Positions 9,388 to 10,198 of a stretch of DNA of 64,000 nt are shown here, in pieces. The stretch's first letter is position 1. Every line of letters begins with the position of its first letter. Origin of the DNA: Roseibacillus persicicus (lineage in GTDB: Bacteria > Verrucomicrobiota > Verrucomicrobiia > Verrucomicrobiales > Akkermansiaceae). The translations under genes and the position numbers were made by a program. The notes beneath the pieces are model-generated. The model made no database searches. It was not told where the DNA came from and saw nothing but the letters and a program-made list of their open reading frames with translations. The stretch lies in contig NZ_BMXI01000006.1 in the NCBI RefSeq assembly GCF_014651675.1, positions 186,001 through 250,000 on the forward strand, written 5' to 3'.

Positions 9388-9463
9388 GAATTAAATAAAG
9401 AAGTTCAGACTCCTCGGTCAAACACACGCTTTGCTTGCAGGCCTCGCGCGGGACACGAGTTGA

Positions 9464-9826
9464 CTATTTCTTCTTAGCCGCTTTTTTCTTGGCGGCCTTC
9501 TTCGCTACTTTTTTAACTGCCTTTTTAGCCACCTTTTTCTTGGTGACTTTCTTTGCAGCCTTTTTGGCAACCTTCTTCTTGGTAACTTTCTTAGCTGCCT
9601 TCTTGGCAACTTTCTTCACCGCCTTCTTGGCAACCTTCTTTTTGGCTGCCTTTTTAGACGCTTTCTTAGCCACCTTCTTGGTTGCCTTCTTCGCGACCTT
9701 CTTAGTTGCTTTCTTGGCTACCTTTTTGGAGGCGGCCTTTTTCGCTACTTTCTTGGTCGCCTTCTTGGCTACCTTTTTAACTGCTTTTTTGGCAGCCGTT
9801 TTCTTTGCTGTTTTCTTTTTCGCCAT
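9464..9826 (-). repeat. Lys/Ala-coding low-complexity repeat
   Basis: About 360 bp of imperfect tandem copies of a 12-21 bp unit encoding (A/V/T)KK(V/A)AKKA. Copies differ at silent positions (aaa/aag, gcc/gct), so the repeat is old and kept at protein level. The antisense strand has a long spurious frame of Phe/Leu/Ala. Confidence 0.85.
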
Positions 9827-10198
9827 AGCTTTATGTGCTGTGAGTTCGCGCCCGAGGGCTTCTTTTTCCTCCGGAGTGAGAGAGCCGGCGGAGAGGATTG
9901 AGCGGGCGGCATCACCGATGCTGCCTGCAAAAGCATTCTGAACGAGTTCCTGAACGATAGGCCGCATCACTACTGATTGCTCTTTGGCCGCCGAGTAGGT
10001 GTTGGCCCGTCCATCACGAGTTGATGTCACCAGATTCTTTTTTTCGAGGCTCTGCAGCACTGACAGGATGGTGGTGTAAGCTCTCTCTTTGCCATCGGGG
10101 AAAAGTTCAATCACAGTGTTCACTGTGGATGGTCCGTTACTCCAGAGCACAGATAGAGCCTGTAACTCGAGTTCGGAAGGGGCTGTGGATCTACTCAT
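9464..10198 (-). CDS. BlaI/MecI-family repressor fused to histone H1-like Lys/Ala tail
   Basis: A 244-residue DNA-binding protein with two parts. Residues 1-123 match a complete BlaI/MecI winged-helix regulator: SELELQALSVLW and TVNTVIELF, the recognition region YTTILSVLQSLEKKNLV, and a C-terminal dimer segment (NAFAGSIGDAARSIL, LTPEEKEAL). Residues 125-244 are a low-complexity tail built from AKK, VKKVAKKA and TKKVAKKA units, about half lysine and otherwise almost only Ala, Val and Thr, like eukaryotic H1 C-termini and chlamydial Hc proteins. Known BlaI proteins end near residue 125. No blaR1-type sensor protease is next to it. An internal ATG (Met125 at 9826) could in principle also yield the tail alone. 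Fusion is seen; chromatin binding is inferred. Confidence 0.9.
   Translation of the reverse strand: MSRSTAPSELELQALSVLWSNGPSTVNTVIELFPDGKERAYTTILSVLQSLEKKNLVTSTRDGRANTYSAAKEQSVVMRPIVQELVQNAFAGSIGDAARSILSAGSLTPEEKEALGRELTAHKAMAKKKTAKKTAAKKAVKKVAKKATKKVAKKAASKKVAKKATKKVAKKATKKVAKKASKKAAKKKVAKKAVKKVAKKAAKKVTKKKVAKKAAKKVTKKKVAKKAVKKVAKKAAKKKAAKKK

Follow-up and report, generated by a model that had tools for sequence, protein, structure and literature searches.

How many proteins does a single reading frame encode when a transcriptional repressor runs on into a histone-like tail? The question is raised by a gene on the minus strand (9464..10198) of the window, by which we mean the whole 64,000-nucleotide stretch of Roseibacillus persicicus DNA that was analysed. 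We consider it probable that the answer is two: a BlaI-type repressor with a long tail and, by internal initiation in the same frame, a free histone H1-like protein. At the level of sequence, comparison between genomes shows the features on which this proposal is built, namely a fused ORF, an RNA structure, a frozen internal start codon, an inner unit that persists without BlaI, and stand-alone copies behind a similar leader.

A BlaI-type repressor continues into a lysine- and alanine-rich tail

The ORF begins with ATG and encodes 244 residues, with no stop between a BlaI/MecI-type winged-helix domain and an in-frame Lys/Ala-rich tail. Pfam PF03965 matches residues 8-119 (9842..10177, minus strand), which include the winged helix and the dimerisation helices, with an E-value of 2.6e-21 and a score of 76.6 bits against a curated cut-off of 22.6; positions 2-113 of the 115 in the profile are aligned, placing the domain in this family. 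A profile of the orthologues, compared with the PDB, matches MecI, BlaI and 2g9w. In a structure model, pLDDT is about 90 across most of residues 11-80 and below 50 for residues 132-239, as would be expected of a disordered basic tail. The tail (residues 125-244) contains 62 Lys, 33 Ala, 15 Val, 7 Thr and 2 Ser, which makes it 52% Lys, and has no acidic residues (D/E). Its long repeats, the absence of acidic residues and a variable repeat number place it among the H1-like Lys/Ala-rich proteins, a class of composition and not a homology family. The chlamydial HC2 model (PF07382) gave no match to the ORF at the Pfam gathering score, and its only hit in the genome is sub-threshold, at the RpoD gene.

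The neighbouring genes encode a LysM protein and a Na/H exchanger-like protein, and no M56/BlaR1/MecR1-like sensor is found beside the ORF; an adjacent M56 sensor is common in the BlaI family, though not obligatory. Elsewhere in the same genome, an ordinary BlaI of 124 residues is followed by an M56/BlaR1-like membrane protein (L099:2175-3521(-)). Lys/Ala-rich segments also occur in other proteins of this genome, including a Rho-like protein (L095:364-2199(-)), an RpoD-like sigma factor (L096:2894-4747(+)), a DksA/TraR-like protein (L098:1909-2517(+)) and an 85-residue basic protein (L097:2001-2258(-)). A pyruvate phosphate dikinase-like protein, a metabolic enzyme, bears an N-terminal Lys/Ala extension, MATVKKKAAKKAVKKSAKKATKKTAAKK (G000:C9:93762 onward; L094:1763-3499, +), and a relative in genus g11 (L171) has a likewise extended pyruvate phosphate dikinase-like protein beside the BlaI gene. 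In another genome, the Lys/Ala repeat of a 96-residue gene (G014:C39:474524; L236) has another partner: it is followed by a short domain, HEEISQQAYLIYLERTSSGREGNQHTDWQEAIKAL.

The fusion is old and largely confined to one family

The family sample comprised 145 genomes of one GTDB family (Akkermansiaceae, judging by the named hits), and an orthologue at an identity of at least 45% was found in 82 of them. A Lys-rich tail is found in every one of the 54 complete orthologous ORFs; it is 23-173 residues long (median about 124), has a median net charge of +58 and almost always starts with MAAKK. The frame is open across the junction in every BlaI-containing orthologue read. Tailed orthologues are present in isolates and single-contig genomes, although contigs often stop within the tail because the repeat breaks assemblies. 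The first-pass annotation had described a BlaI domain that continues, with no intervening stop, as a Lys/Ala repeat of about 120 residues. This description holds, and checks for a frameshift or misassembly at the junction, and for orthologues that all end before the tail, found neither. Since the tail is present in all 54 complete ORFs, an origin of the fusion in such an artefact is ruled out.

The named matches are Roseibacillus, Luteolibacter, Haloferula and other Akkermansiaceae; in a collection of genome contigs a query with the single protein gave nothing, and the matches came from a query with an alignment. In the family sample, the orthologue search found the gene absent from genus g3, which we infer to be Akkermansia. 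Those more distant BlaI relatives in other families of the phylum that were read have no such tail at their end, and one further match outside the family comes from G516, a genome listed under a different family. Thus, the fusion is real, old and largely confined to the family. Genes 5' of the orthologues are often kept (TatD-like, LysM, thioredoxin-like). The upstream regions themselves, at about -30 to -145 (e.g. L134, L140, L156), contain in many orthologues a TTGACG box and then ACTACTAG, a candidate promoter, and ACTAC/GTAGT dyads about 130 nt upstream, again in many orthologues, are candidate BlaI operators.

Silent sites are frozen around an internal ATG

The tail opens with an ATG at codon 125 (9824..9826, minus strand), the proposed second start codon. 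From here the frame encodes 120 residues beginning MAKKKTAKKTAAKKAVKK (9464..9826, minus strand), the proposed free histone H1-like protein. The ATG is present in 93 of 100 aligned orthologues, is followed by GCT (84) and GCA (71), and is unchanged in both of the repressor-less loci described below. No Shine-Dalgarno sequence was found at the internal ATG in any of 75 cases, and there is little at the outer start too (13 of 81).

Across the 100 aligned orthologues, codons 89-131 stand out for the unusual conservation of their silent positions. When pairs of long-tail orthologues at 65-85% identity are compared, identical residues are encoded by identical codons at a frequency of 0.40-0.46 in codons 2-88, 0.71 in codons 89-112 and 0.79 in codons 113-131, whereas the same measure is flat in a short-tail lineage without the internal Met (0.43, 0.46, 0.40, 0.43). 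This contrast argues for a function at the nucleotide level that is tied to this ATG. The earlier remark that the repeat varies at silent positions is correct for the tail, where Lys is encoded by 38 AAG and 24 AAA and all four Ala codons are in use, but not for the junction.

Could the locus nevertheless encode only a fusion, in which a Lys/Ala tail was added to BlaI and serves to strengthen its binding to DNA or to anchor it, the internal AUG being left over from an ancestral gene fusion? The open frame at the junction agrees with this, as do the Lys/Ala extensions of the Rho, RpoD and DksA-like proteins and the persistence of Lys-rich tails without an internal Met, both in the short-tail group and in two further lineages. 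These two, L066 (G015) and L102 (Roseibacillus ishigakijimensis, G023, of the window's own genus), retain Lys-rich tails with the RNA element described below weak or absent, so the tail has value as a fusion too; a search by sequence pattern found no stand-alone Lys/Ala copy in G023. However, a fusion alone explains neither the frozen silent sites nor the covariation of third codon positions, and it also leaves unexplained the survival of the element and Lys/Ala ORF without BlaI and the stand-alone copies behind a similar leader. We regard it as highly improbable that the fusion is the whole story.

Two covarying hairpins precede the internal ATG

The conserved RNA element spans codons 88-128 (9815..9937, minus strand). 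It overlaps the internal start as well as the blaI domain's 3' end, and is supported by covariance model R1, codon conservation and covariation. Its two hairpins, which lie inside that 3' end, sit 40-110 nt 5' of the internal AUG. Hairpin 1 (alignment columns 11-36; 9902..9927, minus strand) reads GGC-GCAUC-GGU-GAUGC-GCC in the window, and hairpin 2 (columns 44-73; 9865..9894, minus strand) reads UCC-CCGG-loop-CCGG-GGA. Between the hairpins and AUG-GCU-GCA-AAA are about 35 nt that are rich in A and C and show little structural conservation.

For 52 thinned sequences, RNAalifold predicted the two hairpins at -16.3 kcal/mol, compared with -0.4 +/- 0.6 for shuffled codon columns, and gave 0 for other windows of the same CDS. 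Pairing holds in 92% of cells for the named structure versus 46-57% for slid partners, and double-change cells number 47 versus 17.7 +/- 3.5 after shuffling. For example, columns 54 and 63 are both third codon positions (of Gly105 and Thr108 in most orthologues); they rank first of 703 third-position column pairs in excess complementarity, with 13 double-change events by parsimony on a tree built from codons 1-86. Among the counted pairs, G.U (73) exceeds A.C (23), which indicates that the structured strand is the sense strand.

In the window's genome, R1 has a single match, this element (98.5 bits, E 1.1e-16), and in the 145 family genomes it has 75 strong matches, all of them within the tailed-blaI gene in the loci read. 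The window's copy is a weaker match than the best, which reaches 145 bits; its hairpins are shorter than the consensus and its single-sequence folding z-score of -1.4 is not significant, and the case for the RNA element is one of comparison across orthologues. Against the covariance models of Rfam 15 there was no family match, with only nearby tRNA genes and weak sub-gathering matches elsewhere.

Several other candidates were set aside. A long-range stem (columns 4-8/106-110) that would form a three-way junction at the AUG is paired in 88% of cells, but its bases hardly vary, leaving it unsupported. A frame-shifted upstream ORF (GTG ... TAA) inside the element has a common stop, but on inspection its start is unconserved in deeper clades. 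Programmed frameshifting at U-UUY-GGA lacks a proper slippery heptamer, and a terminator on either strand lacks a U-run after the hairpins. The antisense ORF at 9435-9941(+) is a by-product of Lys codons read backwards, and a weak R1 match in G004 (L220), within an apparent ribosomal protein L3 gene, is a chance match.

The inner unit persists without the repressor

Two genomes of genus g13, G104 and G371, have the element without an intact BlaI, although both are drafts in which assembly error is possible. Both retain hairpin 2, ATGGCTGCAAAA and an intact Lys/Ala ORF. In G104, BlaI residues 1-71 are lost and the match is limited to about residues 72-124, yet the element scores 114 bits and the LysM gene is in place. 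In G371 there is no recognisable BlaI, and the sequence between a pair of mutually compensating indels is no longer in the BlaI frame; even so, hairpin 1 folds, the Lys/Ala ORF runs uninterrupted to its stop codon, and the upstream thioredoxin-like gene is in place. None of the 18 stem bases of hairpin 2 and none of the 12 bases from the ATG onward has changed in either locus, whereas 7 of the 8 loop bases of hairpin 2 have changed in G371 (loop versus stem, Fisher p 1.2e-5). The ACTACTAG box is not recognisable in these loci. A conserved internal start, constraint on nucleotides and an inner unit that survives without the outer one are what marks an in-frame nested gene, and all three were found here.

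In genus g11, the short-tail genomes have a BlaI tail of about 20-35 residues, without an internal Met or strong element, and five of them (G022, G032, G042, G050, G058) have a separate MAAKKAAKK gene of 63-93 residues; G010 has both the nested form and a stand-alone gene of 58 residues. The leaders of these genes contain an intergenic hairpin, UUUCC-n-CUGG...CCAG-nn-GGAAA, with compensating changes in its inner pairs, then an A/C-rich stretch and AUG-GCC-GCA-AAR. Most have a TTGAC box upstream, and a terminator-like repeat lies downstream. In each of the six stand-alone loci the best R1 match is exactly the leader (E 2e-4 to 0.1 over 29 kb), the scores being modest in five of the six (E 9e-4 to 0.1 in 29 kb). 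These data fit a scenario in which the unit moved to a new site and the nested copy then decayed; an independent origin of the stand-alone gene is possible.

The stand-alone copies, with a TTGAC box upstream, seem to be transcribed on their own, and the nested gene might likewise have its own mRNA. A promoter inside the blaI domain would then give a transcript with the two-hairpin element as its 5' leader, a variant of the two-protein reading with the same two products. The raised silent-site conservation does start at about codon 89, and Leu107-Thr108 favours the rare TTA-ACG, which resembles the TTGACG box of the blaI promoter, but we recognised no consistent -10 box at the right distance and the hairpins account for the conserved bases. 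An internal promoter seems to us unlikely, while still a serious contender.

Alternatively, the hairpins could act on the full-length mRNA in some other way, for instance by making ribosomes pause where the domain ends, by directing RNase processing, or by binding the basic tail or free protein in a translational feedback. The element is a structured sense RNA located at the domain border, and basic proteins often bind their own mRNA. Yet the element and start persist in G371 without an upstream BlaI ORF, and the presence of a similar leader before the stand-alone genes fits control of a downstream start better than pausing inside BlaI. We hold such a role to be distinctly unlikely. Our confidence in the two-protein reading and in its rivals overlaps, because an internal promoter or RNA feedback shares its two products.

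A proposed mechanism for two products from one gene

According to the two-protein reading, translation from the first ATG would yield the BlaI-type repressor with its long Lys/Ala tail, and translation from the internal ATG the Lys/Ala part alone, a disordered, strongly basic, H1-like protein of about 120 residues. The two stable hairpins formed by the last third of the blaI domain may sequester adjacent sequence and keep the A/C-rich stretch accessible, so that ribosomes could land there without a Shine-Dalgarno sequence. Judging by its composition and family, the free protein would coat or compact DNA, like other H1-like proteins. In the full-length product, the tail could give the repressor added non-specific DNA affinity or anchor it, either of which is possible. 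The first-pass annotation had read the tail purely as part of a fusion; the fusion stands, but the tail also behaves as a gene of its own, with its internal AUG, RNA structure, survival without the repressor and stand-alone copies.

BlaI proteins often regulate their own operons (PMC8457756), and by analogy the tailed repressor is likely autoregulatory. More tentatively, and leaning somewhat against it ourselves, we propose that a chromatin-like protein is translated internally, independently of a Shine-Dalgarno sequence, under the control of an undescribed regulatory RNA inside a repressor CDS, and that this protein or the repressor may feed back on the process. One mRNA would then set the ratio of a specific repressor to a DNA-coating protein, with the tail shared between them.

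If the two-protein reading is true, the locus would add a conserved RNA element, apparently not described before, that is at the same time protein-coding. It would also add a gene for a bacterial H1-like protein that is hidden in a repressor gene and seems to move into and out of it during evolution. Annotation would list a single unusual BlaI protein and overlook the other product. The locus would further lend itself to direct tests of internal initiation in the absence of a Shine-Dalgarno sequence and of the control of bacterial chromatin-like proteins. Among the open-licence papers searched, we found none on the combination of a tailed repressor, a nested H1-like gene and an RNA element.

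Comparison with known systems

The outer protein aligns with BlaI, MecI and CopY (PF03965; PDB 1sd4, 1okr, 2g9w) along the entire winged-helix and dimerisation domain, but differs from them in its long Lys/Ala tail, in the lack of an adjacent M56/BlaR1 gene, and in a 3' end that doubles as an RNA element. The inner protein resembles the bacterial histone H1-like proteins of variable length, such as Chlamydia Hc2 (PF07382, PMC2848022), in which length varies through repeat number (PMC2848022), and Pseudomonas AlgP (PMC9239181). The likeness lies in low-complexity Lys-rich repeats; here, in contrast, a repressor gene contains the protein's coding sequence, which follows a conserved RNA structure, and the HC2 cut-off is not reached. 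That one gene can give two proteins is established for Cas11, which arises from within cas8 or cas10 by internal in-frame translation (PMC11899642), and which is likewise a C-terminal segment with its own start codon. The present case differs from Cas11 in being non-CRISPR, in having a covarying two-hairpin RNA and no Shine-Dalgarno sequence ahead of the internal start, and in a segment that is basic and of low complexity. Finally, structured cis-regulatory 5' leaders of bacterial mRNAs (Rfam) also have conserved hairpins with compensatory changes just 5' of a start codon, whereas the leader described here matches no Rfam family and lies within another coding sequence.
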